Assembly (NCBI RefSeq): GCF_001426405.1
Contig: NZ_LMEP01000012.1
Location: 758,707 to 822,706 of the forward strand
DNA length: 64,000 nt
Reading direction: 5' to 3'
From: Streptomyces sp. Root1304
Lineage (GTDB): Bacteria > Actinomycetota > Actinomycetes > Streptomycetales > Streptomycetaceae
Positions 3,055 to 50,645 of this stretch are shown piece by piece. How positions within the stretch are numbered: the stretch's first letter is position 1; each line of letters begins with the position of its first letter. The notes below the pieces were generated by a model. It was not told where the DNA came from and ran no database searches. It worked only from the letters and a program-made list of their open reading frames with translations. Made by a program: the position numbers and the translations under genes.

Positions 3055-4695
3055 ATGAACCACGTACACGACGCATCCGCGCACTCCGAGGAACTCCGCG
3101 CCGCAGCACGCCACTTCGACCGGCGGCGGTTCCTCACCGTCACCGGGGCCGCCGCCGCGCTCGCCTTCGCCACCCAGCTGCCCGCGGCCGGCGCCGCGGC
3201 CGCCGCCGAGCTGGACGGCCGGCGTGTCACCGAGGACCCGTTCACCCTGGGGGTGGCGTCCGGCGACCCGCTGCCCGGCTCCGTCCTGCTCTGGACGCGG
3301 CTCGCGCCCCGCCCCTTCGAGCCCGACGGCGGGCTGCCGGCCGCCCGGCTCTCCGCGCACTGGGAGCTCGCCCGCGACGAGCACTTCACCCGGACGGTCC
3401 GGCGCGGCCGCGCCACCGCGCACCCGGAGTTCCGGCACTCCGTCCACGTCGAGGTCGAGCACCTGGACCCCGGCCGGGAGTTCTTCTACCGCTTCCGCGT
3501 CGGGGACTGGACGAGCCCCGTCGGCCGCACCCGTACGGCGCCCGCCCCCTGGGCCCGCAACTCCGCCCTCAAGCTCGCCGCCGTCTCCTGCCAGGCTTAC
3601 CACGACGGGTACTTCACGGCCTACCGCCACCTCGCGGACGAGGACGTCGACGTCGTCTTCCACCTCGGCGACTACCTGTACGAGTACGCCGTGAACGCCA
3701 CCGGCGGCGCCCGCGCCTACACCGACCGCACCCTCCCGGCCGTCTTCGACCGCGAGACGCTCACCCTGGAGGACTACCGGCTCCGCTACGCGCTCTACAA
3801 GTCGGACCCCGACCTGCGCGCCGCGCACGCCGCCCACCCCTTCGTCGTCACCTGGGACGACCACGAGACCGAGAACAACTACGCGGGCGACACCCCCGAG
3901 AACGGCGTCCCGCCGGAGGAGTTCCTGCTCCGCCGCGCCGCCGCCTACCGCGCCTACTGGGAGCACCAGCCGCTCCGCGCGCCCCAGCGGCCCGAGGGTG
4001 CCGACATGCGGCTCTACCGGCGGCTGCGCTTCGGGCAGCTCGCCCAGTTCGACATCCTCGACACCCGCCAGTACCGCTCCGACCAGGCGTACGGCGACGG
4101 CTGGAAGGTCCCGGGCCCGGAGTCGGAGGACCCCTCGCGCACCCTGACCGGAGCCGCCCAGGAGCGCTGGCTGCTGGACGGCTGGCGGCACTCGCGGGCC
4201 CGCTGGAACGTCCTGCCGCAGCAGGTCGTGTTCGCCGAGCGCCGCGACCGCTCCACCGCCGACTTCACGCTGTCGATGGACTCCTGGGACGGCTACCCGG
4301 CCTCCCGGCAGCGGGTGCTCGCGGGCGCGCGGGCGGCCGGCGTCGAGAACCTGATGGTGCTCACCGGCGACGTCCACGTCGGCTACGGCCTCGACATCAA
4401 GGCCGACTTCCGCGACCCGTCCTCGCGGACGGTCGGCACCGAGATCGTCGCCACCTCGATCACCAGCGGCAAGAACGGCTCCGACCGGCCGTCCAATTAC
4501 GACCGGCTCACCCAGGCCAACCCGCACCTGAAGTTCTACAACGGGCGGCGCGGCTACGTGACGGTGGCGCTCGGCGAGGACGGCGCCCGCGCCGACTTCC
4601 GTACGGTGCCGTACGTGACGACCCCGGGCGCCCCGGTGACCACGGCGGCCTCCTTCGTCACGGAGGCGGGCGACCCGGGCCTCGAGCCCGCCTGA
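3055..4695 (+). CDS. phoD: Tat-exported alkaline phosphatase D (PhoD family)
   Basis: 546 aa. The ATG at 3055 is preceded by GGGGAGGGG. The N terminus carries a twin-arginine signal ([16 protein letters not shown], about residues 22-37) ending after an Ala-rich stretch, so export is by the Tat pathway. The mature part has the PhoD N-terminal beta domain ('[23 protein letters not shown]') and the metallophosphoesterase core: '[19 protein letters not shown]', '[14 protein letters not shown]', '[12 protein letters not shown]' and '[11 protein letters not shown]', which hold the Ca/Fe ligands. It should release phosphate from phosphodiesters outside the cell. No obvious PHO box was seen, but the upstream 135 bases were not analysed quantitatively. 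Confidence 0.93.
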
Positions 4696-4728
4696 GCCGT
4701 CCTCGCGCCGGCGGGGCGCCGGGCCGGG

Positions 4729-5730
4729 TCAGCCCCGCCCGGCAGCCGTCTCCTGCGGATAGCGGACGCCGATGCGGTCCCGTACCGCGTCGAGCGTCCG
4801 CATCACCGCCAGCGAGCCTTCGAGGGGGACGAGCGGGGACTCCGTCTCGCCCGCCCGCAGGCAGCGCATCACCTCGGTGGCCTCGTGCCGGAAGGAGTGC
4901 GGGTCGTTCGCCGACACGAACTCCTCCGGCTCGTGGCCGTTGCGGTGCAGGGTGAAGCGCTCGGGGTAGAAGAAGCCGCGCGGCACGTCGATACGGCCGA
5001 GCGAGCCGGTCACCGAGGCCGTCAGCGGGGTGTCCGCGACGAGCGAGCAGGACAGCAGCGCCGACGCCCCCGAGTCCCAGCCGAGCAGCATGCCGGTGTT
5101 CAGGTCGACGCCCTCCGGCGAGAGGAGGGCGTGCGCGTGGACGGTGTCGGGCTCGCCGAGGAGCAGCTGCGCGAACGACACCGGGTACACCCCGAGGTCG
5201 AGCAGCGCCCCGCCGCCCACGGCCGGGTCCCGCAGCCGGTGGTCCGCGGCGAACGGGCCCGCGAGCCCGAAGTCGGCCTGTACGGTCCTGACCTCGCCGA
5301 TCGCCCCGTCGCGCACCAGCTCCGCGATCCGGCGGACCAGCGGGTTGCAGTACATCCACATGGCCTCCATCAGGAAGAGGCCGCGGTCCCGGGCGAGACC
5401 GACGAGTTCGCCCGCCTCGCGCGCGTTGAGCGTGAGCGCCTTCTCGCAGAGCACGGCCTTGCCCGCCTCCAGGGCGAGGCCCGCCGCCTCCCGGTGCGCG
5501 TGGTGCGGGGTGGCGACGTAGACGACGTCGACGTCCGCGTCGGCGAAGAGCCCGGCCCGGTCCCCGTACGCCCTCGGTATGCCGAACCGGTCGGCGAAGG
5601 CCTTCGCCGAGGTCTCGCTGCGGGAGGCCACGGCGACGACCTCCGCGTCGTCCAGCGTCAGCAGATCCGCCGTGAACCGCTCGGCGATGCCGCCCGTGGC
5701 CAGGATCCCCCAGCGCACCGTCTTCCCCAT
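4729..5730 (-). CDS. Gfo/Idh/MocA-family NAD(P)-dependent oxidoreductase
   Basis: 333 aa from ATG 5730. The N-terminal Rossmann fold starts at 'VRWGILATGGIAERF'. The family marker 'CEKALTLNAREAGEL' follows 'VYVATPHHAHREAAGLALEAGKAVL', and the C-terminal substrate domain contains 'GGGALLDLGVYPVSFA', typical of dimeric dihydrodiol dehydrogenase-like members. Substrates are usually sugars or trans-diols; none can be named here. The start is ambiguous: three in-frame ATGs (5730, 5748, 5766) each follow the same GGTGGGGAC sequence because of an 18-bp tandem repeat. I chose the innermost because the fold begins immediately after it. It is divergent from an exporter gene. Confidence 0.9.
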   Translation of the reverse strand: MGKTVRWGILATGGIAERFTADLLTLDDAEVVAVASRSETSAKAFADRFGIPRAYGDRAGLFADADVDVVYVATPHHAHREAAGLALEAGKAVLCEKALTLNAREAGELVGLARDRGLFLMEAMWMYCNPLVRRIAELVRDGAIGEVRTVQADFGLAGPFAADHRLRDPAVGGGALLDLGVYPVSFAQLLLGEPDTVHAHALLSPEGVDLNTGMLLGWDSGASALLSCSLVADTPLTASVTGSLGRIDVPRGFFYPERFTLHRNGHEPEEFVSANDPHSFRHEATEVMRCLRAGETESPLVPLEGSLAVMRTLDAVRDRIGVRYPQETAAGRG

Positions 5731-9769: not shown

Positions 9770-10002
9770 AGAGGGCTCCTCACGGATGTGCGGACGGAGT
9801 GACCGGCGGGTGAAGATCCGCCGGATCGGTGGACCCCATGGTGCGCCTTCCGGGCCCCGCGCGCTGTGGACCGTTCGGGTGGTTCGCGCCCCCCGCCGCG
9901 CCGGGTCGTGTCCCGCCGCGCCCCGCCCGCATCCCTGCTCCGCCCCCGCCCCGTCAGCGCCGTACCCCGCCCGCACCCCGCATCGCACCCCGTCCCACCT
10001 CG

Positions 10003-10019
10003 CGAGACGCCTCGTCTCG
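10003..10019. promoter_or_regulatory. Inverted repeat upstream of TetR gene (probable auto-operator)
   Basis: CGAGACG-CCT-CGTCTCG: perfect 7-base arms, ending 20 bases before the TetR start at 10040 and overlapping the likely promoter. TetR regulators commonly bind such palindromes in their own promoter. The GAGAC core resembles the palindrome at 29604-29632. Confidence 0.5.
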
Positions 10020-10039
10020 TGCGCTGTTAGATTGGGCCC

Positions 10040-10660
10040 ATGCCCGACACCAAGGCCCCCGACGCCTCCCGCCGCAGCGAGCGCTCCCGCAGCGCCATCT
10101 TCGCCGCCGCCCTCGCCCTCGTCTCCGAGAACGGCTACGCGAAGACCACCATCGAGGGCATCGCCGCCCGCGCCGGGGTCGGCAAGCAGACCATCTACCG
10201 CTGGTGGCCGTCCAAGGCGGCCGTCCTCCTCGACGCCTTCCTCGACCTCGCGGCAAGGGCCAACGAAGCCCTCGGCGGCGACGCCGACAGCGAGATCCCC
10301 GACACCGGGGACCTCGCCGCCGACCTCAGGTACGTCCTCCGCGCCACCGTCGACGAGATGAACGACCCCGCCTTCGACGCCCCCACCCGTGCCCTCGCCG
10401 CCGAGGGCGTCGTCGACCCCGAGCTGGGCGCCCGCTTCACCGAGGCCCTGCTCGAACCCCAGCTCCAGTACTACGTCCGCCGCATCGAGGCCGCCCAGCG
10501 CGCCGGTGACGTCGACCCGGACGTCGATCCGCGCGTCGCCGTGGAACTCCTCGTCGGCCCGCTCCACCACCGCTGGCTCCACCGGACCCTGCCCCTCACC
10601 CACGCCTACGCCGACACCCTCGTCGACCTGGCCCTGCGCGGCCTCGCCGCCGGGCGCTGA
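10040..10660 (+). CDS. TetR/AcrR-family transcriptional regulator
   Basis: 206 aa. The DNA-binding domain spans about residues 12-60 ('RSAIFAAALALVSENGYAK', 'TTIEGIAARAGVGKQTIYRWWPSKAAVLLDAF'). The C-terminal part ('DLRYVLRATVDEM ... GPLHHRWLHRTLPLTHAYADTLVDLALRG') matches the TetR_C_16-like group of Streptomyces regulators. No ribosome binding site precedes the ATG; instead TAGATT ends eight bases upstream, so a leaderless transcript is likely. A palindrome at 10003-10019 suggests autoregulation. The target is not evident because the neighbouring genes are an amidinohydrolase and a primase-like protein. Confidence 0.9.
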   Translation: MPDTKAPDASRRSERSRSAIFAAALALVSENGYAKTTIEGIAARAGVGKQTIYRWWPSKAAVLLDAFLDLAARANEALGGDADSEIPDTGDLAADLRYVLRATVDEMNDPAFDAPTRALAAEGVVDPELGARFTEALLEPQLQYYVRRIEAAQRAGDVDPDVDPRVAVELLVGPLHHRWLHRTLPLTHAYADTLVDLALRGLAAGR

Positions 10661-10784
10661 CGCATCTCACAGGGAGGCCGGGACATCTCACAGCCCCCCG
10701 GTTCCGCACTCCGGTCACCCGAGGCGCAGGATGGTGGGACCATGGGCAGAGCCGAACGGGCGAGCATGAGGTGTGAGGGGATAG

Positions 10785-11564
10785 ATGGGCGACGGCATCG
10801 GCCGCTACCGCGGCACGGAGAGCAAACTCGCACAGTGGCTGCGCAGGCGCCCGAAACGCACCGCGGCCGACGACGAGAACGACCGCGAGAAGCTGCTCCT
10901 GGCCGTCGCCGCCGCCGGGCTGCCCCTGGCCCCCGCCGCGTACCCCGTGGGCTACAGCTGTTCCTGTGAGCGGATCGGCTGTCCCACCCCCGCCCGGCAC
11001 CCCGTCTCCTTCGCCTGGCAGACGCAGTCGACCACCGACCGCGCCCAGATCGAGCGCTGGGCGCGCAACGAGCCCGAGGCGAACTTCATCACCGCCACCG
11101 GCATGGTCCACGACGTCCTCGACGTACCGCTCGCCGCCGGCCGGGCCGCGCTGGAGCGGCTCCTCGCGGAGGGCGTGGAGGTCGGTCCGGTCGCCGAGGC
11201 GGCCGACATCGACACCGTCGGCGGGCGCATGCTCTTCTTCACCGCCACCCGCGGCACCCCCGAGGACGAGGACGAGTGGTGGCCGTGTGAGCTGGACTGC
11301 CACCCGGAGACGATGGACGAGCACCCGGGGCTCCGCTGGCACTGCCGCGGCAGCTATGTGCTCGTACCCCCCGCCCGGCTCCCCGGCGACGAGGGCGCCC
11401 GCCCGGTCGTGGCCTGGCTCCGCGGCCCCGAGCACCCGCTGCCCGACCCGCTGAACCTCCTGGAGACCCTCCAGGACGCCTGCGCCCGCCACGCGGCGGC
11501 GCGCGAGGCGGACGGGGACGGGGAGCACACGGCCCACGAGATCGCGTGGCCGCTGACCCGTTGA
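10785..11564 (+). CDS. Stand-alone protein with bifunctional DNA primase/polymerase (prim-pol) N-terminal-type domain
   Basis: 259 aa, ATG preceded by GTGAGGGG. It resembles the archaeo-eukaryotic primase-like domain proteins common in actinomycetes: 'LLLAVAAAGLPLAPAAYPVG', a Cys cluster 'CSCERIGCPTPARHP', 'NFITATGMVHDVLDVP' and a late 'WHCRGSYVLVPPARLPG'. In active prim-pols two acidic metal ligands sit in a D-x-D motif; here the equivalent is only 'VLDVP', so catalysis is uncertain. No helicase domain or replication gene is adjacent. A chromosomal role in repair or regulation is possible, but the function is unknown. Confidence 0.75.
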   Translation: MGDGIGRYRGTESKLAQWLRRRPKRTAADDENDREKLLLAVAAAGLPLAPAAYPVGYSCSCERIGCPTPARHPVSFAWQTQSTTDRAQIERWARNEPEANFITATGMVHDVLDVPLAAGRAALERLLAEGVEVGPVAEAADIDTVGGRMLFFTATRGTPEDEDEWWPCELDCHPETMDEHPGLRWHCRGSYVLVPPARLPGDEGARPVVAWLRGPEHPLPDPLNLLETLQDACARHAAAREADGDGEHTAHEIAWPLTR

Positions 11565-47776: not shown

Positions 47777-48081
47777 GGGTTCCTCTTCCTCTGTCGCGCG
47801 TGAGCCCTGCCGCCCGCGCCGCCCTGCAAGCTCCGCCCGCAGGCCCGGACCTGACGGAAAACCGTCGTCCCTCGCGGCCGGTTCCGGTGTGCATCGTCCC
47901 CGCCGGGGTGCCGAACGCGCGCTTGGACGCGGGAATGCTCCCCTGTTGTTCCGTCTGTTCCGTTCCAGGTTTGAAATCGACCGTCATTGACGGCTTCTTC
48001 GACACGCAACGTCCTTATAGTGAGCCTGCTTTGATCACATGACCGCGACGCGTGCGACTGTCGCCACAGGATCCAGGACAC
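47777..48081. other. Divergent promoter region between VOC gene and P450 pair
   Basis: 305 bases. The right half has lower GC (TTGAAATCGACC ... CCTTATAGTGAGCC), with a TATAGT -10-like hexamer near 48015 and a TTGACG hexamer, but they are separated by about 23 bases, too far for a standard promoter. No ORF and no clear palindrome were found. Confidence 0.5.
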
Positions 48082-49401
48082 ATGACGCGCCCTTCCTCCG
48101 CAGAGCCCGCGCCCGCTCCGACTCCGAACTCCCCGCCCCCCGGGTGCCCGGCGCACGCCGGCCCGGCGGCCGTGGCGCTGAGCGGGCCCGAGTTCCAGAC
48201 CGACCCCCACGCCGTCCACCGCGCCATGCGCCGCGACCACGGCCCCGTCGTCCCCGTGGAACTGCCCGGCGGCATCCCCGCCTGGCTGGTCATCGGCTAC
48301 CGCGAGGTCCACCGGGTCACCAGCGACGGGGAGTTGTTCCCGCGCGACGTGAGCCTGTGGAACCAGTGGCCGAACATCCCCGACGACTGGCCGCTGCTCC
48401 CGATGGTCGGGCGACCCCTGCCCTCCATCTACTTCACCGCCGGGCAGGAACACCGCCGGCACGTCCGGATGGTCGTCCCCGCCCTCGAAGGCGCCGACCC
48501 CTTCGAGACCCGCGGGCACTGCGAGGAACTGGCCGACCGGCTGATCGACGCCGTGTGCGGCCGCGGCACGGCCGACCTCGTGGCCGACTTCTGCGAGCCC
48601 CTCCCCGTCCTCGTCCTCGCCCGCCTCGTCGGCTTCCCCGACGGCGAGGGCGCCGACATCGCCCGGGTGCTGAAGGACCTGGCCGACGGCGGCCCGGAGG
48701 CGCAGAGCGCCCACCTGCGGTTCGCCGAACACATGGCGAAGCTGGTCGCCGCGAAGCATGCCGAGCCCGGGAACGACATCACCTCGCGCATGCTCGCCTT
48801 CCCCGAGGCGTTCACCGACGAGGAGTACATGCTCGACCTGATGGCCATCACGGCCGCCGGGCACCTCACCACCGCCGACTGGATCAGCAACTCCCTGCGC
48901 CTGATGCTCACCGAGACCGAGCTGGCCGACTCGATGGCCGGCGGCCGGCGCAGCGTCGGCGAGGCCACGACCGAGGTGCTGTGGGAGGACACCCCGACCC
49001 AGATCCTCGCCGGACGCTGGGCCGTCCGGGACACCCGGCTCGGCGAACGGCTCATCAAGGCCGGGGACATGCTGCTCCTCGGCCTCGGCGCCGCCAACAC
49101 CGACCCGCTGATCCGGCAGGGCGCCGCGGTGGCGGACACGGGCGCCGACGCCGCCGCCCGCAGCGGCGCCGGCGCGCACCTGGCGTTCAGCCACGGCGAG
49201 TACCGGTGCCCCTTCCCCGCCCAGGAGATCGCCGAGACCATCGTCCGCACCGGCATCGAGGTCCTGCTCGACCGGCTGCCCGACCTCGAACTCGCCGTCG
49301 CCACCGAGGATCTCGTACGGCGGCCCTCCGCCTTCCTGCGCGGCACCACCTCGCTTCCCGTCCGGTTCACCCCCGTCCGCACGTCAGGAGATCCCTCGTG
49401 A
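48082..49401 (+). CDS. Cytochrome P450, CYP157-like with altered K-helix motif
   Basis: 439 aa from ATG 48082. The P450 fold is recognisable, with the heme-ligand Cys at about residue 376 in 'HLAFSHGEYRCPFPAQEIAE'. Conserved motifs are altered: the K-helix ExxR reads E298-V-L-W301 (Arg to Trp), the I-helix acid-Thr pair reads 'AAGHLTTADW' (acid to Leu), and the heme loop lacks the usual H/R-x-C-x-G. Loss of the ExxR Arg with Trp in its place is the hallmark of the Streptomyces CYP157 family. The stop overlaps the CYP154-like start by 4 bases. Substrate unknown. Confidence 0.88.
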   Translation: MTRPSSAEPAPAPTPNSPPPGCPAHAGPAAVALSGPEFQTDPHAVHRAMRRDHGPVVPVELPGGIPAWLVIGYREVHRVTSDGELFPRDVSLWNQWPNIPDDWPLLPMVGRPLPSIYFTAGQEHRRHVRMVVPALEGADPFETRGHCEELADRLIDAVCGRGTADLVADFCEPLPVLVLARLVGFPDGEGADIARVLKDLADGGPEAQSAHLRFAEHMAKLVAAKHAEPGNDITSRMLAFPEAFTDEEYMLDLMAITAAGHLTTADWISNSLRLMLTETELADSMAGGRRSVGEATTEVLWEDTPTQILAGRWAVRDTRLGERLIKAGDMLLLGLGAANTDPLIRQGAAVADTGADAAARSGAGAHLAFSHGEYRCPFPAQEIAETIVRTGIEVLLDRLPDLELAVATEDLVRRPSAFLRGTTSLPVRFTPVRTSGDPS

Positions 49402-50645
49402 ACTGCCCCCACGCCTCCGCCGCCCAGGGCGGCGGGCCCGTCGTCATCGACCCGATGGTGCAGGACCTGGACGGCGAGACGGCGCGGCTGCGCGACGCCG
49501 GAGCGCTGGCGACGATCGATCTCCTCGGGGTGCCCGCCCGGGCCGTCACCCGGCACGCCGACGCCCGGCGGCTCCTCGTCGACCCCCGCCTGGTGAAGGA
49601 CCTCGACGCCTGGAGCCTGTGGCGCAGCGGCGAGGTGACGCACGCCTGGCCGCTCATCGGGATGATCGACGCCGGACGGTCCATGTTCACCGTCGACGGC
49701 GCCGAACACCGCCGCCTGCGCACCAAGACCTCCCAGGCGCTCACCCCGCGCCGCCTCGAAGCGATACGCCCCGACATCGAGAAGTTCACCGGCGAACTCC
49801 TCGACGCGCTCGCGGACGGCGGCCGGGACGGGGCCGTCGTCGACCTCAAGTCCGTGTTCGCGCAGCCGCTGCCGATGCGGGTCGTGGGCATGCTGATGGG
49901 CGTCGACCCGGCCGCGAACGCCATGCTGACCCGCCAGTACAAGGCCTTCTTCTCGATGCTCACCCCGCAGGACGAACGACTGGCCCTGCTGGCCGAACTG
50001 GACGTCTTCTACGCCGGTCTCGTCCGCGAGAAGACCGCGCGGCCCACCGACGACCTGACCTCCGCGCTGATCCTCGCCGACGAGGGCGGCGAGCCGCTCA
50101 CCGAGGAGGAGGTGATCGGCAACCTCAAGGCGATGGTCGCCGCCGGGCACGAGACCACGATCGGCCTCATCCTCAACGCCGTACGCGCCCTGCTCGCCCA
50201 CCCCGACCAGCTGCGGATGGTCCTGGACGGCGAGGTCTCCTGGGAGACGGTGATCGAGGAGACCCTCCGGTGGGACACCCCCACCACCCATCTGCTGATG
50301 CGTTTCGCCACCGAGGACATCGAGGTGGGCGAGGACGTCATCGCCGCCGGCGAGGGCGTCGTCATCTCCTACCGGGCGATCGGCCGCGACCCCGAGCAGC
50401 ACGGCCCCGACGCCGACGCGTTCGACATCACCCGGCCGACCGCCGCCCGGCACATGACCTTCGGCCACGGCCCGCACATCTGCCCCGGCGCGGCCCTGTC
50501 CCGCGTCGAGGCGGGCATCGCCCTGCCCGCCCTCTTCGCGCGCTTCCCCCGCCTGCGGCTCGCGGTGCCGGACGCGGACCTCCGCAAGCTGCCGGTGATG
50601 ACGCAGAACGACATGGAGGCGTTCCCCGTACTCCTGGACGCCTGA
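49398..50645 (+). CDS. Cytochrome P450, CYP154-like
   Basis: 415 aa from GTG 49398, overlapping the CYP157-like stop (GTGA). All canonical motifs are present: I-helix 'MVAAGHETTIGLILNAV', K-helix E288-T-L-R291 in 'IEETLRWDTPTTHLL', and heme loop 'MTFGHGPHICPGAALSRVEAG' with Cys about 362. The C terminus 'LAVPDADLRKLPVMTQNDMEAFPVLL' is typical of CYP154. CYP154 enzymes oxidise small or macrocyclic substrates with external ferredoxin; no ferredoxin gene is adjacent. Pairing with a CYP157 is a known Streptomyces theme, usually inside conservons. Confidence 0.92.
   Translation: MNCPHASAAQGGGPVVIDPMVQDLDGETARLRDAGALATIDLLGVPARAVTRHADARRLLVDPRLVKDLDAWSLWRSGEVTHAWPLIGMIDAGRSMFTVDGAEHRRLRTKTSQALTPRRLEAIRPDIEKFTGELLDALADGGRDGAVVDLKSVFAQPLPMRVVGMLMGVDPAANAMLTRQYKAFFSMLTPQDERLALLAELDVFYAGLVREKTARPTDDLTSALILADEGGEPLTEEEVIGNLKAMVAAGHETTIGLILNAVRALLAHPDQLRMVLDGEVSWETVIEETLRWDTPTTHLLMRFATEDIEVGEDVIAAGEGVVISYRAIGRDPEQHGPDADAFDITRPTAARHMTFGHGPHICPGAALSRVEAGIALPALFARFPRLRLAVPDADLRKLPVMTQNDMEAFPVLLDA

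Follow-up and report, generated by a model that had tools for sequence, protein, structure and literature searches.

Two overlapping cytochrome P450 genes lie on the forward strand of the window, a 64,000-nucleotide stretch of Streptomyces sp. Root1304 (contig NZ_LMEP01000012.1). The upstream gene encodes a CYP157-type protein and the downstream gene a CYP154C. An earlier note, made from the DNA letters alone, had read the pair as CYP157-like and CYP154-like, and both the assignment and the positions it gave to the two reading frames stand. The features of the locus are as follows.

48001..48047, forward strand: predicted promoter-like element GACACGCAACGTCCTTATAGTGAGCCTGCTTTGATCACATGACCGCG, 5' of the CYP157 start, conserved across loci
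48082..49401, forward strand: CYP157-type P450, 439 aa (translation, CYP154C1 alignment, tree, motif table, AF2 model)
49398..49401, forward strand: stop/start overlap GTGA, 4 bp, seen in the sequence; an NTGA overlap also occurs in other pairs
49398..50645, forward strand: CYP154C P450, 415 aa, GTG start (translation, PDB sequence search, residue comparison)

The genes overlap, as the earlier note had seen: the GTG that starts CYP154C shares letters with the TGA that ends CYP157. Translational coupling of the two at this overlap is likely. The pair is flanked by genes for glutamine synthetase, a beta-lactamase-like protein, a GNAT acetyltransferase, a glyoxalase, a PIG-L protein, and GlnE. 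In a conservon the genes cvnA to cvnD adjoin the P450 genes. No cvnA-D homologue was found among the window neighbourhood genes checked, and none adjoins the pair anywhere in the related Streptomyces clade described below. The claim that the pair sits outside a conservon thus extends to its whole clade, whose pairs are here called standalone.

The two P450 proteins

The K-helix of the CYP157 product reads E298-V-L-W301 and its heme loop F369SHGEYRC376PF. W301 aligns with the Arg of the CYP154 ExxR motif, and the loss of this residue reported in the earlier note is real. The Trp is invariant in 128/128 CYP157 sequences from five groups, and therefore the lost Arg is an old trait of the family that did not arise at the window locus. 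The published motifs are EVLW for CYP157A and EQSLW for CYP157C, with CYP157A2 and CYP157C1 sharing the K-helix Trp of the window protein (PMC3599690). A second conservon CYP157 of the same genome (L096) reads EQVLW, like the CYP157C type. Whereas the published CYP157s have been described as linked to upstream conservons, those of the window clade are not.

The best PDB sequence match of the CYP157 product is CYP154C1 (E 1e-46), and no CYP157 structure is among the PDB matches listed. Its AF2 model (mean pLDDT 88.5) has a P450 fold, with TM scores of 0.79/0.86 to CYP154C1. It is 57-59% identical to the CYP157s that adjoin close orthologues (89%) of the named CYP154C1, a comparison that runs via these neighbours and bears only indirectly on the identity of at least 40% to named members expected of a CYP157. 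The Pfam P450 model did not reach E 0.001 on the window protein. Sequence and fold comparison nevertheless leave no doubt that it is a P450. Because of this miss, censuses that use the Pfam P450 model alone, or an ExxR filter, can overlook CYP157-like proteins.

Residues that lie around the heme in P450s (H124, R312, F369, G372, and C376, the heme Cys ligand) are kept in 69/69 aligned CYP157s. Other P450 hallmarks are gone. The ExxR Arg is Trp in 69/69, the I-helix acid is missing in 68/69, the catalytic Thr is missing in 44/69 (Pro in 39), the meander Arg varies among the 69, and the Gly of CxG is lost, mostly to Phe. Since the heme-holding residues are kept and most oxygen-activating residues are not, the likeliest role of CYP157 is that of a heme-thiolate pseudo-monooxygenase that binds a ligand; its heme binding and its ligand, like any contact with CYP154C and any regulation, are predictions. 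Thr occupies the catalytic position in 56/66 CYP157s of the window clade, and therefore the protein may retain some chemistry.

The downstream neighbour is a canonical CYP154, in agreement with the earlier note. It has an AGHETT acid-alcohol pair at 249, ETLR at 288, and CPG at 362 (Cys362), all conserved across the group. Its identity is 68% with CYP154C5 and 58% with CYP154C1, above the 55% that delimits CYP154C. CYP154C5 of N. farcinica is a crystallised steroid 16alpha-hydroxylase and a member of a Nocardia-type conservon. Its four steroid-contact residues are M84, F92, Q239, and Q398 (PMC8048783). Equivalents of M84, F92, and Q398 are kept in 66/66 CYP154Cs of the clade, and Q239 is Lys. 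CYP154C is the catalytic member of the pair and, from this likeness and the conserved contact residues, probably hydroxylates a small molecule that resembles a steroid, terpenoid or macrolide.

Distribution and ancestry of the pair

One genome per species was scanned, and 80 loci were retained. Streptomyces loci with a CYP157 at least 70% identical to that of the window carry the pair without cvnA-D, as does S. beijiangensis (L076). The overlapping, conservon-less pair that the earlier note proposed to look for in other genomes thus recurs, being maintained in dozens of Streptomyces species with the 4-bp overlap in standalone loci. The NTGA overlap also occurs in most conservon-linked pairs. 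Recurrence of the overlap in standalone loci, together with W301 in every CYP157, shows that neither is due to chance or sequencing error. Both traits also occur in conservon-linked pairs, and they are therefore ancestral rather than special to the window. The earlier note had counted conservon genes in related strains against its reading. Within the clade there are none; outside it cvnA-D, or the part of it that is on the contig, lies directly 5' of the pair in Nocardia loci, in S. aidingensis, in Streptomyces sp. YIM 98790, and in three further genomes (G047, G105, G113).

The two genes travel together. Window-type CYP157 is present in 17/121 Streptomyces genomes and window-type CYP154C in exactly those 17, with no genome holding only one. 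The idea of the earlier note that the two form one unit holds for inheritance; that one P450 may support the other, as it also proposed, has gene linkage and selection as its evidence. Across the 121 genomes, 74/76 CYP154C genes lie directly 3' of a CYP157; one exception is a match of 48% identity, and the other is on a different contig from the CYP157 of its genome. Standalone pairs sit in at least four chromosomal contexts, always with both genes. The contexts inspected contain genes for phospholipase C, a LacI-type regulator, glycosidases, a two-component system, VMAP-C, and aldehyde dehydrogenase. A neighbouring gene as the true partner was considered and rejected, as no gene is common to these contexts, nor did they yield a redox partner or a gene of a shared pathway. 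These results bear on the view that the two are ordinary, independent P450s of one pathway that are merely co-transcribed. The P450 fold, the heme Cys, most heme-contact residues, and the catalytic-position Thr of the window clade are in keeping with it, but it has to accommodate a CYP157 that lacks the I-helix acid, the ExxR Arg, the meander Arg, and the CxG Gly, contexts free of a redox partner or pathway gene, and a CYP154C that is almost always accompanied by CYP157. We regard it as improbable.

In a CYP157 tree with CYP154 as root, all 27 rows of standalone CYP157s fall into a single clade (SH-aLRT 99), which is nested within the conservon-linked pairs. The same 27 rows form a clade in the CYP154 tree (97), where the conservon-less L076 branches next (98). 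L076 adjoins the clade in the CYP154 tree, and its place is not settled by the CYP157 tree. A single loss of cvnA-D explains the standalone clade if L076 is its sister. Within the clade, tree distances of CYP157 and CYP154C are only moderately correlated (r 0.56), a point against the coupling preferred below. Two further conservon-less pairs are of separate origin. L146, the pair of genome G088, has an interrupted CYP157. L137 (genome G012, contig C1, 4751-7203) lies inside the cvn9 clade; here cvnA-D was lost independently, both P450 genes were kept, and the upstream element is absent. A pair in Microtetraspora glauca NRRL B-3735 (L027) has Streptomyces-like glnA-glnE synteny and clusters inside Streptomyces, and this genome is possibly misnamed.

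Two conservon types resemble the pair. The cvn9-type conservon of Streptomyces has the same P450 genes in the same order, usually the same 4-bp overlap, and a related element 5' of its first gene. The window pair differs in the absence of cvnA-D, and its CYP157 and CYP154C are 57% and 59% identical to the cvn9-type proteins of its own genome. That conservon (L095, contig C23) reads cvnA-B-C-D, CYP157, CYP154C with the same 4-bp overlap; it is this ordinary arrangement that indicates that overlap and pairing were inherited from conservons. Nocardia-type conservons are the closest conservon-linked relatives, with an identical order and identities of 66% for CYP157 and 67-68% for CYP154C, but they carry cvnA-D directly 5', and a comparable element shows up in only 4/39 Nocardia loci. 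The N. farcinica locus (L175; genome G141, contig C2, 3992-9625) is a complete conservon with cvnA-D, CYP157, and a protein 99% identical to CYP154C5. The CYP157 of the Nocardia-type conservon was also seen in NZ_LN868939.1. Relocation of the cognate cvnA-D elsewhere in the genome was considered and rejected; the sole close CvnA/CvnD belongs to the cvn9-type conservon, which has its own P450s.

Each of the 66 standalone-clade loci, and L076 as well, has a TATAGTG element 5' of CYP157, modally 67 nt before the start. The exact core is present in 66/67 loci, and L048 has CTATAGTT. The consensus is TCAC-N2-AA-N2-TCCyTATAGTG-N5-GCGTTGATCG, conserved while the flanks differ among the contexts. The pattern AANNTCNYTATAGTG at up to one mismatch has a single site in the genome, which is that of the window; the element of the genome's own cvn9-type conservon is too diverged for it. 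A position weight matrix of the element has its best whole-locus match at the cvnA start in 29/31 Streptomyces CYP157/CYP154C conservons, where 0.85 are expected. The conservon version has the consensus AAnTCTCcTATAGTGaCCgnGAcTTGA. Only one of six conservons without CYP154 gave such a match. Since conservon matches score well below the training set, and the match may partly be a core promoter, common control of standalone pairs and conservons is something that we infer. In the simplest reading, the conservon's promoter would have been retained when cvnA-D was lost. A leader RNA hairpin was no more stable than its shuffles, and sigma-70 promoter and terminator scans gave no match.

Descent from a conservon, and not separate invention, follows from the outside relatives that carry cvnA-D directly 5' of the pair. 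Loss of cvnA-D with retention of the element and both P450 genes follows from the nested clade, the several contexts, and the shared element. It is thus very probable that the pair is a two-gene operon from a CYP157/CYP154C conservon, that cvnA-D was lost once in an ancestor of the Streptomyces clade, and that the element and both P450 genes were kept and now occupy several sites. What is new is this history of the pair, the Trp and the overlap being already ancestral.

Selection on CYP157 after the probable conservon loss

By a counting method, in which the sequence pairs are not independent, the standalone clade has a dN/dS of 0.26 for CYP157 and 0.19 for CYP154C. The corresponding values are 0.24 and 0.27 in the Nocardia-type set, which is mostly Nocardia plus two Streptomyces loci, and 0.29 and 0.32 in the cvn9-type set. 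Because the CYP157 value is like those of the conservon clades, conservon loss did not relax CYP157, and purifying selection persists. After the loss, constraint loosened at only 7 of the roughly 400 positions in CYP157. With so few sites, a pattern of surface change expected from a lost CvnA interface is uninformative.

CYP157 could in principle be left over from the lost conservon and in decay, persisting only because it overlaps CYP154C. The interrupted CYP157 of G088 and one frameshifted copy are what such decay would look like, but 65/66 standalone CYP157s are intact, dN/dS is low, and W301 and Cys376 are invariant save for the Cys of that frameshifted copy. The dN/dS values and the invariant motifs led us to reject decay, which is extremely improbable. 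The frameshifted copy (L090, Streptomyces sp. RKAG290, 9977-11211) is disrupted near the heme loop and is either a sequencing error or a young pseudogene.

Possible roles of CYP157 beside CYP154C

P450-type CvnE proteins accompany CvnA kinases that are without a sensory domain, and CvnE11 has been modelled on the ATPase domains of CvnA11 (PMC13343842). P450 accessories of CvnA kinases are also described in PMC8510531. In conservons, CYP157 would be an accessory through which the kinase CvnA senses. A heme-thiolate protein without oxygen-activating residues fits a ligand sensor. Once cvnA-D was lost and the promoter-like element and the overlapping P450 genes were retained together, the job of the freed CYP157 would be with CYP154C, either in sensing the same ligand or in binding and modulating CYP154C. 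In this clade CYP154C appears to be the partner that matters, because CYP157 is still selected after the loss of CvnA-D and stays with CYP154C throughout the 121 genomes, and CYP157 occurs elsewhere without CYP154C. The 7 loosened sites are a counterpoint, as they fit equally well whether the partner is new or the original one. With moderate confidence, our overall best reading is a conservon-derived pair in which a pseudo-monooxygenase CYP157 is coupled to a catalytic CYP154C. That the remaining role of CYP157 is with CYP154C, by ligand sensing or direct modulation, has a little less than an even chance. Still more tentative is the proposal that CYP154C has CYP157 as an obligate partner, which modulates it or shares its ligand, the two P450s making up one unit that is both regulatory and catalytic.

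The main rival holds that CYP157 still serves a conservon. The standalone pair would then act in trans on the kinase CvnA that the cvn9-type conservon encodes, or on some other kinase, adding a second sensory input from a separate locus. In each of the 17 genomes that have the pair there is also a cvn9-type CYP157, the CvnA and CvnD of the window's own genome are 64% and 71% identical to Nocardia-type proteins and hence close to the lost ones, the pair keeps a conservon-like upstream element, and few CYP157 sites loosened. However, the cvn9-type conservon is already equipped with a CYP157 and a CYP154C of its own, and the two types of CYP157 are only 57% identical. We judge action in trans to be unlikely, though less so than independent P450s of one pathway.

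Coupling of CYP157 to CYP154C would have a partial parallel in the P450-derived glycosyltransferase activators (TIGR04515), in which a protein of P450 fold helps an adjoining enzyme. The window CYP157 is a weak match (69 bits against a cut-off of 343 bits) and not a member; its partner is a P450, and it keeps the heme Cys.

The standalone clade bears on the function of P450 accessory proteins in conservons. According to a 2026 study, neither type of conservon accessory had been assessed biochemically before; that study tested the GAF type and not the P450 type (PMC13343842). Since the signalling genes are gone and both P450 genes are kept, the clade allows a function tied to CvnA to be told apart from one tied to CYP154C and is a natural test of what the odd CYP157 partner does. 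Well-studied CYP154C biocatalysts stem from operons in which a P450-like partner is conserved, and the two are worth testing jointly. If CYP157 is an obligate partner, CYP154C steroid hydroxylases, including CYP154C5, have been studied without their natural partner.

Some loci depart from the paired arrangement. A Nocardia CYP154C (L185, genome G234, 3995-5224) has neither CYP157 nor a conservon within 7 kb upstream, and four CYP157 genes (L150, L151, L155, L157) stand without an adjoining conservon or CYP154C. Genome G096 has 11 CYP157-like matches at E <1e-60.
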